Shown piece after piece: positions 54,059-64,000 of a DNA stretch of 64,000 nt (within the stretch, counting starts at the first letter, position 1; every line of letters starts with the position of its first letter). The notes beneath the pieces are model-generated. The model saw only the letters and a list, made by a program, of their open reading frames with translations, was not told the DNA's origin and did no database searches. The translations under genes were made by a program, and so were the position numbers. Origin of the DNA: Actinomadura harenae (GTDB lineage: Bacteria; Actinomycetota; Actinomycetes; Streptosporangiales; Streptosporangiaceae); contig NZ_RFFG01000016.1 in assembly GCF_003696215.1 (NCBI RefSeq), forward strand, positions 1 to 64,000, given 5' to 3'.

Positions 54059-55111
54059 ATGCCCTTCAGCGAATCGGGTTCGATCTACAGCGAAGTGGCC
54101 ACGGACCGTCGCGCCCGAACGATGGCCGAGCCATCTTCCTCGCCCATCCCACCAACAGGACTCGCGGTCTTCGGATGCGGTCAGGACGATGCCGCCTTGT
54201 TCCGGGAGATGGGGGCACGCCTTGGATTGTCGCTGACCATCACCGAGGGCGCCGTCTGCGAGACCAACGCTGAACTTGCACGTGGCAACCGATGCGTCAG
54301 CGTGAACCACAAGACCCAGGTCACCGGTCCCATGCTTCTGGCGCTCAGCAAAGCCGGTGTGGAATACATCTCCACCAGAAGCATCGGCTGCAACCACATC
54401 GACCTGGAGTACGCCGAGCGCGTCGGTATCTCGGTCGGCAATGTCGCCTACTCGCCGGACAGCGTGGCCGACTACACGTTGATGTTGATGCTGATGGCCG
54501 TGCGCCACGCGAAATCCACCATCCGCCGCACCGACGCTCATGACTATCGGCTGAGCGAAACTCGCGGCAAGGAGCTGCGGGACCTGACCGTCGGGGTGAT
54601 CGGCACAGGCCGCATCGGCGCAGCGGTCATCCAGCGTCTGCGAGGTTTCGGCTGCCGCGTGCTGGCCCACAACAACCGATCTCACGATTCACCCGGCCAC
54701 GTGCCTTTCGACGAACTGATCGAACTGAGCGACATCGTGACGCTCCACACCCCGCTCACCGCGGACACCCACCATCTCCTCGACCGCCATCGCATCGAGC
54801 GGATGAAGCCCGGCGCGTACATCGTCAACACAGGTCGCGGACCGCTGCTCGATACCGAGGCGCTCCTCGCCGCACTGGAGAGCGGCAGGCTGGGCGGCGC
54901 GGCACTGGACGTCCTCGAAGGCGAGGACGGCATCTTCTACACCGACCGTCGAAACAGGCCTTTCGAGAACGAGGCCCTGGCGCGACTGCAGCGCCTGCCG
55001 AACGTGCTGATCAGTCCGCACTCCGCCTATGACACCGACCACGCCCTGAAAGACATCGTCGAGAACACTCTCATCAACTGCCTGAGCTTCGAGAGCGGGA
55101 GAACAGCATGA
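54059..55111 (+). CDS. vanH: D-lactate dehydrogenase VanH
   Basis: The 350-residue enzyme reduces pyruvate to D-lactate with NADH, supplying VanA. It has the D-2-hydroxyacid dehydrogenase layout: nucleotide site VGVIGTGRIGAAVIQRLRGFG, the substrate Arg in IVNTGRGPLLDTEAL, the conserved Glu in DVLEGEDGIF and the catalytic His in ISPHSAYDTD. Order and spacing match VanH of actinomycete glycopeptide-resistance clusters. Its stop overlaps the vanA ATG (ATGA). An internal ATG at 54122 could be the start instead. Base composition is visibly less extreme than in neighbouring genes, suggesting transfer. Confidence 0.93.
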   Translation: MPFSESGSIYSEVATDRRARTMAEPSSSPIPPTGLAVFGCGQDDAALFREMGARLGLSLTITEGAVCETNAELARGNRCVSVNHKTQVTGPMLLALSKAGVEYISTRSIGCNHIDLEYAERVGISVGNVAYSPDSVADYTLMLMLMAVRHAKSTIRRTDAHDYRLSETRGKELRDLTVGVIGTGRIGAAVIQRLRGFGCRVLAHNNRSHDSPGHVPFDELIELSDIVTLHTPLTADTHHLLDRHRIERMKPGAYIVNTGRGPLLDTEALLAALESGRLGGAALDVLEGEDGIFYTDRRNRPFENEALARLQRLPNVLISPHSAYDTDHALKDIVENTLINCLSFESGRTA

Positions 55112-56148
55112 GCAGATTGAAGGTCGGATTCATCTTCGGAGGCGCTTGCGAGGAGCACTCCGTCTCCGTCAAGTCAGCGCGCGAGGTGGCGAGGAACCTC
55201 GACACCGAGAAGTACGAGCCGCTCTGGATCGGCATCACGGCCGACGGCGACTGGATACTGTGCGACGGCCCTGCCGCGGGCTGGGAGAGCGGCAGCGCCC
55301 GACCCGTCACGCTGTCACCTGACCGAAGCGTGCACGGTCTGCTGGTCATGGGGCAGGTTGGCTATGAGACGGTGCGCCTCGACCTCGTCTTCCCCATACT
55401 TCACGGCAGGCTCGGCGAAGACGGCGCGATCCAGGGTTTGTTGGAGCTCTCCGGCATCCCCTACGTCGGCTGCGACATCCAGGGCTCGGCCGTGTGCATG
55501 GACAAGTCCCTGGCCTACACCGTCGCGAAGAGCGCAGGAATCGCGACGCCGGTTTTCTGGGTCGTCGCGGAGAACGAGAAGGTCGACCCCGACCGCCTCC
55601 CTTATCCCGTGTTCGTGAAGCCGGCCCGATCAGGTTCATCGTTCGGCGTCAGTAAAGTCACCGAGAAAGATGAGCTGCCGAGCGCGCTGAGCGCAGCGCG
55701 ACAGTACGACCTCAAGGTTCTGATCGAGGAGGCGGTGGCCGGCGGCGAGATCGGCTGCGCGGTCCTCGAAGAACGGTCCGGCCTGGTCACCGGCGAGGTG
55801 GACCGCGTCGACCTCTCGCACGGATTCTTCAGAATCCACCAGGAGGACTCCCCCGAGACCGGCTCGGAGAACTCGACGTTCATCGTTCCCGCCGACATCT
55901 CCGACGACTCGCGCCGGCTCGCCCAACAGACCGCCAAGACCGTCTACCGCGCCCTGGGCTGCAGGGGACTCGCCCGCGTCGACATGTTCCTCACCGACGA
56001 CGGACAGGTGGTGCTCAACGAGGTCAACACCATGCCCGGCATGACGTCCTACAGCCGCTACCCGCGAATGATGGCCGCCGCGGGACTGTCGCTCTCGGAC
56101 GTGATCGACCGGCTCATCTCGATGACGCTGCACGGGACGAAGCGATGA
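55108..56148 (+). CDS. vanA: D-alanine--D-lactate ligase VanA
   Basis: The 346-residue ATP-grasp ligase joins D-Ala to D-Lac to form the depsipeptide that replaces D-Ala-D-Ala in peptidoglycan precursors. It has the N-terminal FGGACEEHSVSVKSAREVA, the grasp loop VKPARSGSSFGVSKV, and LARVDMFLTDDGQVVLNEVNTMPGM (shown in pieces) at the metal site. In the omega loop, FRIHQEDSPE carries the His that in VanA/VanB-type ligases selects D-lactate over D-alanine. It is coupled to vanH by ATGA and its own stop overlaps the vanX start, so the operon is tightly packed. Confidence 0.93.
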   Translation: MSRLKVGFIFGGACEEHSVSVKSAREVARNLDTEKYEPLWIGITADGDWILCDGPAAGWESGSARPVTLSPDRSVHGLLVMGQVGYETVRLDLVFPILHGRLGEDGAIQGLLELSGIPYVGCDIQGSAVCMDKSLAYTVAKSAGIATPVFWVVAENEKVDPDRLPYPVFVKPARSGSSFGVSKVTEKDELPSALSAARQYDLKVLIEEAVAGGEIGCAVLEERSGLVTGEVDRVDLSHGFFRIHQEDSPETGSENSTFIVPADISDDSRRLAQQTAKTVYRALGCRGLARVDMFLTDDGQVVLNEVNTMPGMTSYSRYPRMMAAAGLSLSDVIDRLISMTLHGTKR

Positions 56149-56753
56149 ACGACGACTTCGTCTACATCGACGACTGGGTTCCGGGCGTCCGCTGGGACGC
56201 CAAGTACGCCACCTGGGACAACTTCACCGGCAAACCGGTGGACGGCTATCTCGCGAATCGAATCGTCGGCACCCGGTCCCTGAGCGCGGCCCTGGAGCGA
56301 GCGCGCCGGAAGGCGGCCTCTCTCGGCTTCGGGCTGCTTCTCTGGGACGGGTATCGCCCCCAACGCGCCGTCGACTGTTTCCTCCGCTGGTCGGAACAGC
56401 CCGAGGACGGCCGGACCAAGTCGCACCACTACCCGAACATCGATCGGGCCGAGATGGTCACGCAGGGGTATGTGGCCGCGAAGTCGGGCCACAGCAGGGG
56501 CGGCGCCGTGGATCTGACCCTCTATCACCTTGCCACCGGTGAGCTTGTTCCCATGGGTGGCGGCCATGACCTCATGGACCCGATCTCACGTCATCAAGCC
56601 AGCGAAATCACGCCGGCCGAGGCCCACAACCGCGAGCATCTCCGTTCCATCATGGAGGACTGCGGATTCGATCGTTACGACTGCGAATGGTGGCACTACA
56701 CGCTAAGAAACGAGCCCCATCCTGATGCCTACTTCGACTTCCCCATCACGTGA
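56145..56753 (+). CDS. vanX: D-Ala-D-Ala dipeptidase VanX
   Basis: The 202-residue zinc peptidase hydrolyses D-Ala-D-Ala so that only D-Ala-D-Lac enters the wall. Residue numbers match the prototype exactly: Arg71 in WDGYRPQ, His116 and Asp123 in SGHSRGGAVDLTL, Glu181 and His184 in DCEWWHYTL. It is cytoplasmic and overlaps the vanA stop by four bases. It is followed on the same strand by a C39-like peptidase gene. Confidence 0.94.
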   Translation: MNDDFVYIDDWVPGVRWDAKYATWDNFTGKPVDGYLANRIVGTRSLSAALERARRKAASLGFGLLLWDGYRPQRAVDCFLRWSEQPEDGRTKSHHYPNIDRAEMVTQGYVAAKSGHSRGGAVDLTLYHLATGELVPMGGGHDLMDPISRHQASEITPAEAHNREHLRSIMEDCGFDRYDCEWWHYTLRNEPHPDAYFDFPIT

Positions 56754-57396: not shown

Positions 57397-58029
57397 TGCC
57401 AGGCGAGCCGCCACCGCGCGTCGTTGTCGCCGGTGGCCATTCGGCAGGACACATCGAGCCGCGATGAACTGCGCCGACGCCCTACGTCGTCTGGAGCCCA
57501 CGGCCGAGGCCGTGCTCCACCGCGTCCTGGCCGAGGTCGTGGTGGGCTTCGGCGGCCATGTGGCCATGCCGGCCTACCTTGCCGCCCACAGGCAGGGCCT
57601 GCCGATCGTCATCCACGAGGCGAACGCCCGGCCCGGAGCGGCCAACCGGCTGGCGGCCCGGATGACGACGCACGTGTTCACCGCCCCCGCCGAGCGACCG
57701 GCGTGCAGGTGCTGCACATCACCGAGCCGCAGCACGTGGTCGAAGGGCCGGGCCCCGACCCCGCCGACCCGCCCTACGTCGTCATGCCCTACGTAGACGA
57801 GATGCAGTACGCCTACGCCGCGGCCGACTTCGTGATCTGTCGCTCGAGAGCGATGACGTGCGCGGAACTGGCCGCCGTCGGCCTGCCGGCCGTGTACGTC
57901 CCGCTACCGCTGCGCGGCGGTGAGCAGCGGCTGAACGCCGAGCCGGGCGACACGGGTACACCGGCCAGGCTGGAAGCTCGTCCCGCTTCTACCGGGCCTG
58001 CCGGGCTGTCGCAGGTAGCCGTACCGTGA
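57396..58029 (+). pseudogene. Degenerate murG-like glycosyltransferase gene
   Basis: The start is good (ATG 57396, CAGGAGGACA upstream) and reads [15 protein letters not shown], the MurG G-loop. It then meets a stop, and the frame resumes as [17 protein letters not shown] deletion of ~75 residues follows before [17 protein letters not shown] and [20 protein letters not shown] second frameshift near 57700 leads to [20 protein letters not shown] and [20 protein letters not shown], ending abruptly after [10 protein letters not shown]. MurG adds GlcNAc to lipid I. Extra murG copies occur beside some actinomycete van operons; this one is dead. Confidence 0.8.
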
Positions 58030-59095
58030 CGCGTAGCCCGCCATCGGCGCGCGGGGTGAGCGAGAGCGTTCCGTCGTGCGCTCGGGTGATGCTCTTGGCG
58101 ATCGCCAGACCGAGGCCGACCCCTGCATGGTCGCTGCGGATGCGTTCAGTGCCGCGCTGGAACGGCTCGGTAAGGGTGGAGACCACGTGCGGGCTGAGCT
58201 TGTCGCCGGTGTTCTCGACCGTGAGCACGGCGTCCTCAGGGCCGACGGCGGTGCTGACCTGAACGGTGCCGGACTCCGGCAGGTTGTGGACGATCGCGTT
58301 GTGCAGGAGATTCGTGGTCAACTGCAGCAGGAGCGCATGAGAGCCGGTGGTGGGGGTGATGTCCCCGGAGGTTTCGATGACGACGCCATGCTTCTCGGCA
58401 AGCGGGAGGAGTGTCTCGGTGGCTTCTTCCGCGATGAGAGACAGATCGACGTCATCTCGGGCGAAAAAGCGCTGGTCACTGCGGCTGAGCAGGAGCAGCG
58501 CCTCGGTGAGGTCGATCGCTCGGGCGTTGACGACGCGGAGGCGTTCATCGAGCTCGCTGCTTTCCCGGCTCGGATCGTTGCGAGCGACGTCGAGCAAGGT
58601 CTGCGTGATCGCCAGTGGAGTACGCAGCTCGTGGGAGGCGTTGGCCGCGAAGCGCTGCTGTTCGGCGACATGCGCTTCGAGCCGCGCGAGCATGCCGTCG
58701 AAGACGTCGGCGAGCTCTCGGAACTCGTCCCGGCGCCCCTCCAACTCGATCCGGTGAGAGAGCGCCCCCCTCGCAGCCGTGCGCGTGGCATCGGTGATGC
58801 GGGCCAGCGGAGCCAGCATCCGCCCGGCGAGAATCCACCCTCCGGCGAGACCGAACACCAGCAGGAACGCCAGCACCAGTATCGCGGCCGGAACGAAGAC
58901 GGCTGGGCCGAAATTGCTGCTCGGGTGGAAAACCCGCAGGAAGTCGGACAGATCTGCGACATACAGGCCTTTCGACCTTCCTCGCAGGAGGAACACCCAC
59001 ACAGCGGCGAGCAGCAAGGCGCCTGCGATCATGAGGAATCCGGCATAGCTGAAGGCGAGCTTGAGGCGGACGCTCAACCCAGGTGCCCTATCCAC
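57989..59095 (-). CDS. vanS: Histidine kinase VanS
   Basis: The 368-residue sensor kinase has two transmembrane helices ([21 protein letters not shown] and [20 protein letters not shown], with an extracytoplasmic loop of ~37 residues), a HAMP segment ([19 protein letters not shown]), the H-box [20 protein letters not shown], the N-box [14 protein letters not shown] and the G-box [20 protein letters not shown]. It matches actinomycete VanS. GTG 59095 overlaps the end of the vanR remnant, so the original vanRS coupling is kept. It converges on the van operon and overlaps the murG remnant's end. All kinase motifs are intact. Confidence 0.9.
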
Positions 59096-59402
59096 GTTCG
59101 TCTCCCTCACTCCCGGCTTCCGGTCCTGTACCGATGCGGTGGCCGACGCCAGGCACCGTGGCGATCGACCAGGGTTCGCCGAGCCGCTTGCGCGGGTCGG
59201 CGAACTCCCGCACTGGCGGCCTCTTATGGGCATGCCTGCGGTCGAGAGCTCCGGGACGGAGTACGAGTTCTTGCAGCTCGAACGGCTTGGTGAGGTAGTC
59301 ATCAGCGCCGAGCTCGAACCCGGAAGCCCTGGCTTCCAGGCGCAGTCCGGCGCGGATGGCCTCAGCCATGTAGGGCTCATTCTCCACAACCGGCACACGC
59401 AT
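59088..59402 (-). pseudogene. vanR: vanR with two internal deletions
   Basis: The frame is open from ATG 59402 (PVVENEPYMAEAIRAGLRLE) to the stop, but only 104 codons remain of the ~227 expected. Against the full-length relative at 44748 it jumps from GLRLEA straight to RASGFELGADDYLTKPFEL, losing the phospho-acceptor Asp, and from RPPVREFAD to RKRLGEPWSIATVPGVG, losing most of the winged helix. Both deletions keep the frame. The product could neither be phosphorylated nor bind DNA. Start, VanR box upstream and overlap with vanS are still present. Confidence 0.88.
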
Positions 59403-59423
59403 GCTCTCAATCGTAGGAACGGA

Positions 59424-59444
59424 GGGATATCGCCGACGTATCGA
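59424..59444. promoter_or_regulatory. VanR-type site upstream of the deleted vanR
   Basis: The 21-bp box starts GGGATATCG and ends ACGTATCGA, 22 bases before the vanR start. It matches the boxes at 45452 and 53993. Confidence 0.65.
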
Positions 59445-59556
59445 AACCGCGCGCTGGCCGGCAACACGGTGCCGCCTTGGACGGCGAACGGGCCGCCCTC
59501 CTGGCCGTTCTCGACCACGAACCCGCCGTGCCGCTTGCTGAACTCCTTGACTGAGG

Positions 59557-59640
59557 CCCTTCAGTTCTCCGGTGAGGAACTCCAGACCGACGTCGCTCGC
59601 CTTCAGTTCCTCAGCGAGGATGGCGAGTTCGATGTGTGCC
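59557..59640 (-). pseudogene. Serine recombinase fragment
   Basis: On the minus strand about 28 codons read ELAILAEELKASDVGLEFLTGELKG (in part), the middle of a resolvase-type serine recombinase domain. The catalytic Ser region and the rest are missing. It lies just upstream of the vanR remnant, consistent with mobile-element activity at this border of the van cluster. No other gene is seen in 59445-59650. Confidence 0.5.
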
Positions 59641-59652
59641 GCACGGCGGCGT

Positions 59653-60651
59653 TCAGCCGGCCGCCAGGGCTGCGCCCAGCGGCGTGTGCTCGTAGCGGAC
59701 GGCCCGGCCGGTGCGAGTGCGGGTGACCAGACCAGCATCGCGCAGCACCGCCAGATGGCTGCCGACGGTTCCGAGGCTCAGGCCGAGCTGGGCGACCAAC
59801 TGCGTCGTCGTTGCCGGCACGTCCAGCGCACGCAGCACGTCCGCGCGGCGCGGGCCGACCAGTCGGCTCAGGGCCTCGCCGCCCGGTGCACGCGCCACAG
59901 GGCCGAGCAGGTCCGCGATGCCCCAGGCGGGATAGACCAGGGCGTAGGGCCATGGCGGCTCGACGTAGCTGATCAGAGTGCCGAACACCGTCGGCATCAG
60001 CAGCAGGCCCTTGCCGGCCAACTGGTGCCGGTCCCACTCGGTACGCGAGCCCGTGCGCACCTTGATGGTCCCGGCCTGTCCCTCGGAGCGCCAGTTCACC
60101 CGGGGGTCGAGATCGGACAGTGCCGCCGCCCACCCGTACATCGCCAGGTACCCGGCGCGGCGGACGAGGTCACGCTCCAGTACCGCCCGCAGCCGCGGCC
60201 AGTCCGGCTCGACCAGCGCCTGCCAGCTCGCCTCGAGCGCATCGGCGAGCCGGGTGACCACGTCCGGCGCGTCGAGGATGCGCTGCACGTAGCGTGGCGG
60301 CGTCCGCAGTCCCTCCAGGTTGCGGTCCAGTTCCAGACGTGCGCGGCGCAGGGGCGTGGCGCGCACGGCGGCCAGCTCAGCGGCGAAATCGCCACCGGAG
60401 CCGGACGGCGGCGGATGGATGAAGTCGGCGTTGTAGGCGCCGTGGCGGAACAGCGCCGTCAGCGCCCCGACTGCGGGCACCTGCCGGCGCAGCTGCTCGT
60501 ACCGGGGCGCGATGCGCTCGGCCCACGGCCGGAGCGGGCCGGCGGCCTGCACGCCGGCTGCGACGCGCAGCGCCTGCATCGCCTCGCCCAGCGGTGAGAT
60601 CGCGTAGCGGGTACGCGCCACGTCGACGGGTCCCACCTCGATGGCCAGCAT
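59653..60651 (-). CDS. ArsR-family regulator with DUF5937 domain
   Basis: The 332-residue protein has a ~240-residue N-terminal DUF5937-like domain (YAISPLGEAMQALRVAAG, RLELDRNLEGLRTPPRYVQR, LVEPDWPRLRAVLERDLVRR) and a C-terminal ArsR helix-turn-helix (DVPATTTQLVAQLGLSLGTV, SHLAVLRDAGLVTRTRTGRA). The pattern occurs in actinomycete regulators that sit beside MFS genes. A truncated transporter start lies divergent from it at 60711, so its target appears lost here. Confidence 0.85.
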   Translation of the reverse strand: MLAIEVGPVDVARTRYAISPLGEAMQALRVAAGVQAAGPLRPWAERIAPRYEQLRRQVPAVGALTALFRHGAYNADFIHPPPSGSGGDFAAELAAVRATPLRRARLELDRNLEGLRTPPRYVQRILDAPDVVTRLADALEASWQALVEPDWPRLRAVLERDLVRRAGYLAMYGWAAALSDLDPRVNWRSEGQAGTIKVRTGSRTEWDRHQLAGKGLLLMPTVFGTLISYVEPPWPYALVYPAWGIADLLGPVARAPGGEALSRLVGPRRADVLRALDVPATTTQLVAQLGLSLGTVGSHLAVLRDAGLVTRTRTGRAVRYEHTPLGAALAAG

Positions 60652-60869: not shown

Positions 60870-61001
60870 ACGAACGCATACAGCGAGCTTCGATCGCTTC
60901 GCGTTCCTGCTGGTGGACCCACCGCTGCCATCGCGGACGTTCCTGTCCGTCCCAACGGCGGCCCGGCGGCGATCGGACGCCCCAGCGAGGTGGGAAGCCG
61001 A

Positions 61002-63068
61002 ATGCTGTTGTTGCGCGATGACTCCACGCGAGCCGCGGTGGCGGCGCTGATGCGTTCGCATCTGCGAGCCATCCAGGCGGCCCAGGCGGGCTCGGACGAA
61101 CTGCACCGCATCCAGTGGGACAAGCTGGTCTCCACGGTGGGGAGCGCGGCGTCCGCGCCCCTCGCCACCGAGCCGCTGCGCCGGTCGCGAGAGCTGACCC
61201 CGTCCGCCGTGCCGGCGGGGGTCTCACCGCGGCAGGCGATCAGGGACCTCCTGAGCGCGCTCCCCCTGCTGGAGCGCTCGGTGCTGCGCGCGCGGCCGAA
61301 CGCGGCGCTGAACATCCCGCCGTCCCGGTTCGTGCACTACTACGAGTCGTCCGGGACGACCGGAGATCCGGTCGCGGCGCCCAAGGCGGTGGACGACCTG
61401 GTGGTCAACACCATGAACATCGGTGAGATGTGGGGGCGCTTCCTGGTCCCCGGGGATGTGGCCCTCATCCTGATCAACGGGCCGTTCGCGCCGGCGGGGT
61501 ACCAGTTCGAGAAGGTCCTGGAGTACCTCGGGGTGATGTCGGCCCGGCTGTGGACCGACAATGTCACCGGCGACTACGGCCGGATCCTGGCGATCGTGCG
61601 GGAGATCGAGGCCAACGTCTACGTCGGCACCGCGTCGCGGTTGCTGGAGATGACGCAGTTCGCGCTGGACCACGCCGAGCCGGTGCCGCGGTTCGCCCGG
61701 CTGCTGCTGATGGCCGAGCAGACCGGCCCCCACCTGCTCAGGCATCTGGAGGAGCTGACTGGGAGCGTGGCCCTGGTGTGCTCCTACGGGTCCTCGGAGA
61801 CCGGCACGGTCGCGGTCACCTGCGAGCGGGGTCGCCTGCACCTGCAGTCCCAGAGCTACCTGGCCGAGATCGGCGACGACTCGGGGATCCGCCTGATCGA
61901 CGGCGGTCCGGACCGCGGAGAGCTGGTGGTCACCACCCTTGACCTGCCGAGCCGGCCGCTGGTGCGCTACCGCACCGGGGACCTGGTCGAGATCACCGGT
62001 GAACGATGTCGCTGCGGGTCGGCGCAGCCCGTCGTCCGGACGCTGGGCCGCGAACAGGACGTCTTCGCGCTCGGCGATCTCCATGTCCGGCAGGGTGATG
62101 TCGAGGCGCTGCTCTGGCCGTCGGACGTGGCCGTCGGCGAGGGGCCGCGTCCGCTGAACTACATGCTGGTCCTGCGCGGGCGCCATGTCGTCTGCCTGAT
62201 CACCACCGACCGTCCGGCGTCCACGAGCTGGTGCGCGGCCCTTCAGCGGCGCCTGGCGGAGATGTTCTCGGCCAGGACGTTCGCGCTGCGTGTGGTGGAG
62301 TCCTTGCCGCCGCTGGCGACCCAGGGCGCCTACGTGGGATGGAAGCTGTCCCGGGTGCTCGACCTGGACGACACCACCCTGTGGGACAGACTGCCGGCGC
62401 CGATCCGCGGGGTGCTGCAGGAGACCCTGCAGACGCTGGACGCCATCCCCGACATGCCGTCCGTCACCGCGCGCGATGTCCCCCGCCCCCGCACCGAACC
62501 CGCCGGGACCCCGATGGCCGCCCAAGGGACGATGACCGCCGAGCAGCAAGCCCAGTTCGTCCTCGGCGTGTACTTCCGCACCCAGGCGGCCATCGAACGG
62601 TACATGGGCGCCGACCGGCTGCCCCAATGGACGCAGCACGTCGCCGAGATCAACGCCGCCGCGATGCGCCGCCAGCTGCCCGACCGGGCCGCGCAGGCGC
62701 GCGACCTGCTGACCGGCCTGAACAGCATGCTGGACGTCTACGGGTCCGACACGACGCGGGTCGACGAGGCCGACCGGACCGTCCTGGAAGTGCGTCGGTG
62801 CGGGATCTACGACTACCGCGAACGCGCCCGGGAGCAGGGCGTGCAGCTGACCCTGGGCCGTCCATGCGAGTACTGCGTGGACCTGCATCACCGTACCGCC
62901 GCTGAACTGGGGATCAGCGTCCGGAACGAACTCGGTGAGCGCAACTGCCGGTGGGTGACCGACGTCCCCGTCACCGGTGCCCCGACCGGCGGGGATCCGA
63001 CCGGTGTGGAGTCCGCGGCCGACACCGCCCACGGCACGCAGGACGAGCGCGGAGAGCAGGAGCGATGA
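61002..63068 (+). CDS. PaaK-like adenylate-forming ligase with extra C-terminal domain
   Basis: The ~688-residue protein has an AMP-dependent ligase domain of the phenylacetate-CoA ligase type: HYYESSGTTGDPVAAPKA (ATP loop), LVCSYGSSETGTVAV, PLVRYRTGDLVEI and a zinc-like CRCGSAQP. After a Pro-rich linker (~residues 490-510) comes a ~150-residue domain ending in RRCGIYDYRERARE, RPCEYCVDLHHRTAAEL and ERNCRW, which resembles the L-2-amino-thiazoline-4-carboxylate hydrolase/V4R-like fold. It should activate a carboxylic acid. ATG 61002 follows GAGGTGGGAAG; GTG 60990 is an alternative. It is coupled to the P450 gene by ATGA. Confidence 0.75.
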   Translation: MLLLRDDSTRAAVAALMRSHLRAIQAAQAGSDELHRIQWDKLVSTVGSAASAPLATEPLRRSRELTPSAVPAGVSPRQAIRDLLSALPLLERSVLRARPNAALNIPPSRFVHYYESSGTTGDPVAAPKAVDDLVVNTMNIGEMWGRFLVPGDVALILINGPFAPAGYQFEKVLEYLGVMSARLWTDNVTGDYGRILAIVREIEANVYVGTASRLLEMTQFALDHAEPVPRFARLLLMAEQTGPHLLRHLEELTGSVALVCSYGSSETGTVAVTCERGRLHLQSQSYLAEIGDDSGIRLIDGGPDRGELVVTTLDLPSRPLVRYRTGDLVEITGERCRCGSAQPVVRTLGREQDVFALGDLHVRQGDVEALLWPSDVAVGEGPRPLNYMLVLRGRHVVCLITTDRPASTSWCAALQRRLAEMFSARTFALRVVESLPPLATQGAYVGWKLSRVLDLDDTTLWDRLPAPIRGVLQETLQTLDAIPDMPSVTARDVPRPRTEPAGTPMAAQGTMTAEQQAQFVLGVYFRTQAAIERYMGADRLPQWTQHVAEINAAAMRRQLPDRAAQARDLLTGLNSMLDVYGSDTTRVDEADRTVLEVRRCGIYDYRERAREQGVQLTLGRPCEYCVDLHHRTAAELGISVRNELGERNCRWVTDVPVTGAPTGGDPTGVESAADTAHGTQDERGEQER

Positions 63069-64000
63069 CCGGCCACACCGCGGGCGAGGACCACGCCGCA
63101 GCGGCCCTCGGCACACTGCCGCTGCCCTACCGCCGCGACGAGGCGTGCCCCTTCGACCCCGATCCGCGGTTGCGGCGGCTACAGGACGAGGAGCCGATCT
63201 CGCGGGTGCGGATCAACAGCGGCGACATATGGCTGGTCACCCGGTTCGCCGACGGCAGGAGGGTTCTGGGCGACCGCCGCTTCAGCAGCCAGCTGACGCC
63301 GCTGGGGATCGTCCTGCCCGAGGCGCGGGACGCCTCCCTGGCCGCCGAGCTTCAGAACCAACAGCCCGGGACGTTCATCGAATGCGACCCGCCCGAGCAC
63401 ACCCGGCTGCGGGCGATGGTCGCCGGAGAGTTCTCCCCGTCGCGGATGCGCCGGTTGTCTCCGCGCGTGGAGGCCATCGTGGACCGCCTGCTGTCGGACA
63501 TGGAGGCCGCCGGGCCGCCCGTCGACCTCATCTCCGCCTTCGCGCTGCCCTTCCCCTCCACCGTCATCCGTGAGCTGCTCGGCGTCCCGGACGGCCACGG
63601 CTTCGACTTCGCCGCCCTCACCAAGGTCATGACCGACGTGATGACCCCGGTGGAGGATCTCATCCCCACTCGCGACGCGCTGCGCGCCGGTATGCGAGCC
63701 CTGGTCAAGGCCAACCGGAACGCCCCGGGCGACAACGCGCTCGGCCGGATCATCCGAGCCCACGGGCCGGACGTGACGGACGAGGAACTGGTGGGCATCG
63801 GCAACCTGCTGCTGGTCGCCGGGCACGAGACCACGGCGAACATGCTGGGCATCGGCACCCTGGCCCTGCTGCGCCATCCCGAGCAGCTGCGGCGGCTGCG
63901 CGAGGACCCTTGGATCGTCGACCGGGCGGTCGACGAACTGGTGCGGTACGTCTCGATCCCCAACCACGGAGAGATCCGCACGGCGCTGCAGGACGTGCGC
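63065..64000 (+). CDS. Cytochrome P450 (partial, cut by window end)
   Basis: The first 312 residues of a bacterial class I P450 are present: HTRLRAMVAGEFSPSRMRRL (helix C region), the oxygen-binding I-helix LLVAGHETTANMLGIGTLAL and the start of the K-helix region (DPWIVDRAVDELVRYVSIPN). The haem-Cys motif would lie beyond the edge. The AGHETT motif suggests a CYP105/CYP107-like monooxygenase as found in secondary metabolism. Its ATG overlaps the stop of the ligase gene, so ligase and P450 form an operon. Electron partners are not seen in the window. Confidence 0.9.
   Translation, partial: MTGHTAGEDHAAAALGTLPLPYRRDEACPFDPDPRLRRLQDEEPISRVRINSGDIWLVTRFADGRRVLGDRRFSSQLTPLGIVLPEARDASLAAELQNQQPGTFIECDPPEHTRLRAMVAGEFSPSRMRRLSPRVEAIVDRLLSDMEAAGPPVDLISAFALPFPSTVIRELLGVPDGHGFDFAALTKVMTDVMTPVEDLIPTRDALRAGMRALVKANRNAPGDNALGRIIRAHGPDVTDEELVGIGNLLLVAGHETTANMLGIGTLALLRHPEQLRRLREDPWIVDRAVDELVRYVSIPNHGEIRTALQDVR

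Follow-up and report, generated by a model that had tools for sequence, protein, structure and literature searches.

The stretch of DNA analysed here (the window) is the first 64,000 bases of a contig of 125,356 bases in the 9.35 Mb genome of Actinomadura harenae. Near its right edge, a single open reading frame on the forward strand runs from 60990 (GTG) or, more likely, from 61002 (ATG), which matches the point where the ligases of related loci begin in alignment, to a stop codon at 63066-63068; residue and codon numbers of its product are counted from the GTG at 60990. The first ~490 residues (61002-62456) resemble a PaaK-like adenylate-forming (ANL) ligase, with the motifs YESSGTTG, YGSSETG, RYRTGDL, and GWKLSR. 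After a Pro/Ala/Arg-rich linker (codons 490-514, 62457-62531), a second domain of ~140 residues begins at about residue 516 and carries four cysteines (Cys604, 626, 629, and 653), the stretch 62535-63068 covering this domain, a variable tail, and the stop codon. A preliminary description of this DNA had one protein joining an adenylate-forming domain to a domain with a C-E-Y-C motif, its stop overlapping the start of a cytochrome P450 gene, and both observations hold: the frame is open throughout, the N-terminal part has PaaK-like matches, C-E-Y-C occupies residues 626-629, and the P450 ATG (63065-63067) overlaps the TGA of the fused gene (63066-63068). The P450 is CYP105-like and occupies 63065-64000 of the window on the forward strand, ending at contig position 64309; its in-window part scores 25.8 bits against PF00067 (cut-off 22.8), and 469 distinct solved sequences match the P450. 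A DUF5937/ArsR-type regulator gene (59653-60651, reverse strand) diverges from the operon, in which its role is only putative.

Beyond the window the forward strand continues with a VOC protein gene (64353-64745; PF00903, 23.6 bits against a cut-off of 20.6), a second P450 gene (64729-66009) whose closest solved chain is PDB 3p3l, presumably AurH, and an O-methyltransferase gene (~66048-67094) whose closest match is CalO6, followed on the reverse strand by an MFS transporter gene (67177-68598). The preliminary description had suggested looking past 64000 for ferredoxin, carrier protein, or transporter genes and had supposed that the fusion could mark a small cluster continuing there; these four genes bear out the continuation. 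Regulator, catalase-like, P450, and terpene synthase genes lie further downstream and are not counted in the cassette described below; the P450 beside the terpene synthase (PF19086; contig 73328-75681) is likely part of a separate small terpene cluster. Upstream, the window holds a glycopeptide-resistance operon of vanH, a D-Ala-D-Lac ligase gene (VanO-like), and vanX (54059-56753), the ligase and VanX scoring above general NCBIfam cut-offs; a glycopeptide link of the present genes to these van genes was considered and found no support in the cassette or its relatives. The MurG-like gene at 57424-58029 seems to be truncated; in the reverse-strand region 57989-59738 a sensor kinase gene appears whole, and the adjoining response regulator frame (59088-59738) seems to be disrupted.

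One scan of genome contigs for exact short peptides yielded seven relative loci, a lower bound, in Amorphoplanes auranticolor, Actinoallomurus purpureus (counted once in the family tallies), Amycolatopsis kentuckyensis, Kibdelosporangium aridum, Amycolatopsis vastitatis, Rhodococcus rhodnii (where the contig begins inside the ligase gene and supplies only its end), and Kibdelosporangium banguiense. The cluster comparison proposed in the preliminary description thereby recovers a four-gene cassette in other actinobacteria, with the order ligase, four-cysteine protein, P450, VOC protein in the window and in 7/7 relatives. The ligase and the four-cysteine protein are encoded by separate genes in different frames in all seven relatives and are fused only in the window. 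The stop of the four-cysteine gene (or of the fused gene) overlaps the P450 start by 4 bases in all eight loci, and the ligase and four-cysteine genes overlap by 4 bases (ATGA) in five of the seven relatives and by 11 bases in A. auranticolor, with a gap in A. purpureus. Among the relatives only A. purpureus has the second P450 (53% identity). Because the annotated neighbours of the cassette in several relatives are mostly unrelated housekeeping, regulatory, and secreted proteins (methionine synthase, GH62, regulators), the four genes appear to form a stand-alone unit. The cassette on the contig assigned to Rhodococcus rhodnii NRRL B-16535 is highly similar to the Kibdelosporangium and Amycolatopsis ones, which could reflect a recent transfer or a misnamed strain. 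A search of the open-access literature by family and gene names returned no paper on the cassette or the four-cysteine family, which is weak evidence of absence.

Since a one-base change could fuse the two genes, a sequencing or assembly error, with the organism carrying the usual two genes, has to be weighed against a genuine fusion. The different frames in 7/7 relatives, whose ligases end at positions equivalent to window codons 485-515 and which all have a gene end and a new start where the linker lies, fit such an error, and the four-cysteine domain was found in 1 of 65 genomes of the genus, that of A. harenae itself, leaving no second isolate for comparison. However, when codon usage is taken from 30 genes nearby, the 25 codons of the linker (490-514) give a score of +1.55 for the fused frame, compared with -6.72 and -6.92 for the remaining two. 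Their score difference relative to frame +1 lies inside the range of true coding sequence (12% of 373 real 25-codon windows are lower), and would be reached by 0.5% of real windows if the true frame were +1. Codon statistics, though resting on 25 codons, thus argue that the fusion is real, and we regard an error as quite improbable. By comparison with the relatives, the fusion would be a single joining of two normally separate genes and not a defining trait of the cassette.

The ligase domain can be placed in the ANL superfamily, and as PaaK-like, on the basis of its motifs and nearest solved relatives. PF00501 (AMP-binding) matches residues 120-282 with E 3e-6 and 26.7 bits, under the curated cut-off of 29.9, and the ligase motifs together with the GWKLSR lysine are invariant in 7/7 aligned rows. 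The nearest solved sequences are AjiA1 (5e-23), NatL2 (5e-21), and ClxA (1e-20), three PaaK-like adenylate-forming enzymes of benzoxazole pathways that yield esters or amides, with a Bacteroides phenylacetate-CoA ligase behind them (1e-13). PDB entry 9s3l is the one that we take to be ClxA. Entry 6siw is taken as NatL2 through its sister entries 6SIX and 6SIY (PMC12519233). Membership in a named family is not indicated: the domain scores 36.1 bits with TIGR02155 (phenylacetate-CoA ligase PaaK; curated equivalog score 646.3), and 80.9 bits (E 9e-23) with NF041217, the BagE/FevW synthetase family, whose cut-off is 800. NatL2 is described as adenylating 3-hydroxyanthranilate, after which a second molecule attacks to give an unstable ester that a zinc enzyme converts to the benzoxazole (PMC7204872), and both NatL2 and ClxA link an aryl adenylate with a phenol or an amine (PMC7204872, PMC12519233). 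BagE/FevW, the bagremycin-ferroverdin synthetase, couples an aryl acid to a phenol (PMC9221444); like NatL2, it and ClxA turn aryl acids into esters or amides (PMC12519233, PMC9221444).

The comparison with these enzymes has bounds, in that the alignment covers only residues 79-377 of the fused ligase. The C-terminal extension by which NatL2-type enzymes give a lysine to the partner monomer, without a CoA step, would, if present here, lie past residue 377, where the alignment has ended and the full-length model is too poor to use. Glu235 of NatL2, reported to hold the hydroxyl of 3-hydroxyanthranilate, aligns with a serine in the fused ligase and in its relatives, so the substrate acid probably differs from that of NatL2. 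The partners differ as well: NatL2 works with a second zinc enzyme that acts on the unstable ester (PMC7204872), whereas the partner here, in place of that of NatL2 or BagE/FevW, is the four-cysteine protein. The scan of the downstream genes found no amidohydrolase.

The four-cysteine domain falls into no Pfam or NCBIfam family. With ten members searched, the best Pfam match has a chance-like E of 0.0074 and the best NCBIfam match, AhpD core, reaches 0.0012, under its cut-off; matches to Mx_ML (PF17536), Thioredoxin_3, Tag1_N, and Lar (E 0.007-0.18) were taken as chance, and the alignment profile found only chance-level matches among PDB sequences. The preliminary description had likened the domain to ATC hydrolases, a kinship that we reject: profile, genome, and profile-profile tests were all negative, with no PF14196 match and an hhalign probability of 1.8% against a profile of eight PF14196 proteins (0.2% with a narrower profile), although several cysteines fall roughly in register. 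It had also named two outcomes that would tell against its proposal, and neither came about, since the C-terminal part corresponds to no known accessory domain of ligases and the genes downstream include biosynthetic ones.

Across the 20 aligned rows of the family all four cysteines are invariant, a pattern that suggests a metal site, probably zinc. Other positions conserved in 20/20 rows include Q17, E21, W32, Y69, S71, Y94, R95, T106, and W140 (domain numbering), and the Glu of CEYC is present in ten. In a model of the domain (eight sequences, mean pLDDT 77) three helices precede an alpha/beta part, in which CEYC sits at a helix start. Its top PDB fold matches are de novo designed proteins, which we take to reflect common topology and not kinship. 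The natural matches (TRAPP subunits, H-NOX, MopR, YslB, and BcsD) have low scores, with Foldseek E of ~0.005 or worse, and the VIA fold match to 5kbg has Z 5.4 and rmsd 4.7 over 120. With scores this low and designs ranked first, a V4R/TRAPP-like fold is only a lead, not a result. MopR and DmpR are sensors of the V4R/TRAPP type whose likeness to the four-cysteine domain is a weak one of fold, without a sequence match; the zinc site of DmpR is cysteine-rich with three Cys and one Glu, in contrast to four Cys here, and the fused protein has no ATPase or DNA-binding domain. The model of the full-length fused protein is poor (pLDDT 57.7, with low confidence at residues 489-527) and gives no usable domain contact.

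Family members also occur outside the ligase cassette. Searches with the domain, A. harenae included, were positive in 1/65 genomes (the genus search), at least 1/396, and at least 3/394, nine candidates having been scored per genome in the latter two, and 20 loci were compared in all: the window, the seven relatives, and 12 distant loci, ten from 297 genomes of the order and two from 394 of the class. The window and its relatives have ligase, P450, and VOC genes beside the four-cysteine gene; L032, L033, and L034 have AsnB-like and HpaB-like genes; L066 has AsnB-like, class-II DAHP synthase, luciferase-like, and AMP-binding genes; L035 has the last three of these; L067 has an HpaB-like gene; and L036 and L058-L062 have Rieske and CMD genes. 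A gene for DAHP synthase, the entry to the shikimate pathway, is present in L033, L035, and L066. Three proteins (L032, L034, and L067) have an extra N-terminal stretch resembling a second copy of the helical half. In the six Rieske loci, a group of glycosyltransferase-like, Rieske dioxygenase, MFS-like, CMD, and four-cysteine genes is conserved and near-identical among the genomes; their Rieske proteins are 94-97% alike, so these loci carry the weight of roughly a single independent case, and the window's close relatives are likewise non-independent. As raw counts, 20/20 loci have a gene for an oxygenase, be it a P450, HpaB, luciferase-like, or Rieske enzyme, and 13/20 have one for a carboxylate-activating enzyme, there being none in the stretch searched at the six Rieske loci and L067.

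In our interpretation, to which we assign a probability of about one half, the genes form an uncharacterised cassette for an aryl acid, and its four-cysteine domain, which probably carries a metal, accepts this acid in activated form ahead of the oxidation. The ligase would adenylate an acid of aryl or aryl-like type, and the activated acid, or an ester or amide derived from it, would be received by the four-cysteine domain, probably a zinc protein that has a pocket for small molecules; the P450 would then oxidise the product. The VOC protein may bind that product, relieving product inhibition or protecting the cell. In this strain the second P450 and the O-methyltransferase probably tailor the product, and the MFS pump may export it. 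The coupling of an acid-activating enzyme to a second domain and a P450, as put forward in the preliminary description, is supported by gene content, and the fusion and gene overlaps favour direct transfer from ligase to four-cysteine domain, with which the ester-forming relatives of the ligase are also in keeping. A precedent for pairing a P450 with a VOC protein comes from doxorubicin synthesis, where the two genes also share an operon and DnrV is described as binding doxorubicin and relieving inhibition of DoxA (PMC12979805); that pathway is a different one, the order here is P450 then VOC, and the likeness to DnrV is by gene context only.

Counting against our reading are the ligase profile scores, which lie far below cut-offs, the serine in place of NatL2 Glu235, the poor full-length model, the weak fold matches, and the make-up of the 20 loci. 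Since an oxygenase is the constant partner (20/20) and a ligase or AsnB-like enzyme is not (13/20), the four-cysteine domain may serve oxidation instead of acyl hand-over: in the chief rival to our reading, it is an oxygenase accessory that presents an aromatic substrate or product to a P450, HpaB, luciferase-like, or Rieske enzyme, the joining to the ligase being incidental. The low-scoring fold similarity to MopR, a sensor of phenol, would fit such a role, as the sensor domain of the related DmpR is reported to bind phenol and zinc (PMC7264223). However, the four kinds of oxygenase are unrelated, which makes a shared docking role hard to picture, and in five of the seven relatives the four-cysteine gene is coupled to the ligase gene as tightly as to the P450 gene; we consider this alternative rather unlikely. 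Improbable, in our estimate, is an ordinary aryl-CoA ligase whose four-cysteine domain acts on the thioester or adenylate as a thioesterase, acyl carrier substitute, or sulfur donor. The PaaK family of the ligase, the CxxC pair at the predicted helix start, and the weak AhpD-core match seen in 5 of 10 members point that way, but the match stays under the cut-off (15.4 against 27.8 bits for member 1), the histidine of CxxC-x3-H, four residues past the second Cys, is present in only 8 of 20 members, and the six Rieske loci and L067 offer, in the stretch searched, no activating enzyme. A role of the cassette in aryl-CoA catabolism is a further, less likely alternative; the two P450s, the methyltransferase, and the pump argue for synthesis.

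Apart from the four-cysteine domain, all of the enzymes belong to known superfamilies, and the cassette can be described as PaaK-like, probably acting on an aryl acid, with an unnamed accessory domain. For the family as a whole we propose, tentatively and at somewhat less than even odds, that four-cysteine proteins are undescribed enzymes that depend on a metal, or else domains that hold intermediates, in the specialised metabolism of aromatic compounds. They would be common to three or more unrelated cluster types (ligase-P450-VOC; AsnB/HpaB/DAHP synthase or luciferase-like; and Rieske-CMD), and in A. harenae the fusion would let a short-lived aryl adenylate or ester pass straight to the four-cysteine domain. 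That the two are naturally fused gives a hint of the enzyme with which the four-cysteine protein works. As the four genes recur in actinobacteria distant from one another, they point to a compact pathway, probably with an aromatic product, that is small enough to be expressed whole, and the four-cysteine family, unmatched in Pfam and NCBIfam, would mark further such clusters for mining.
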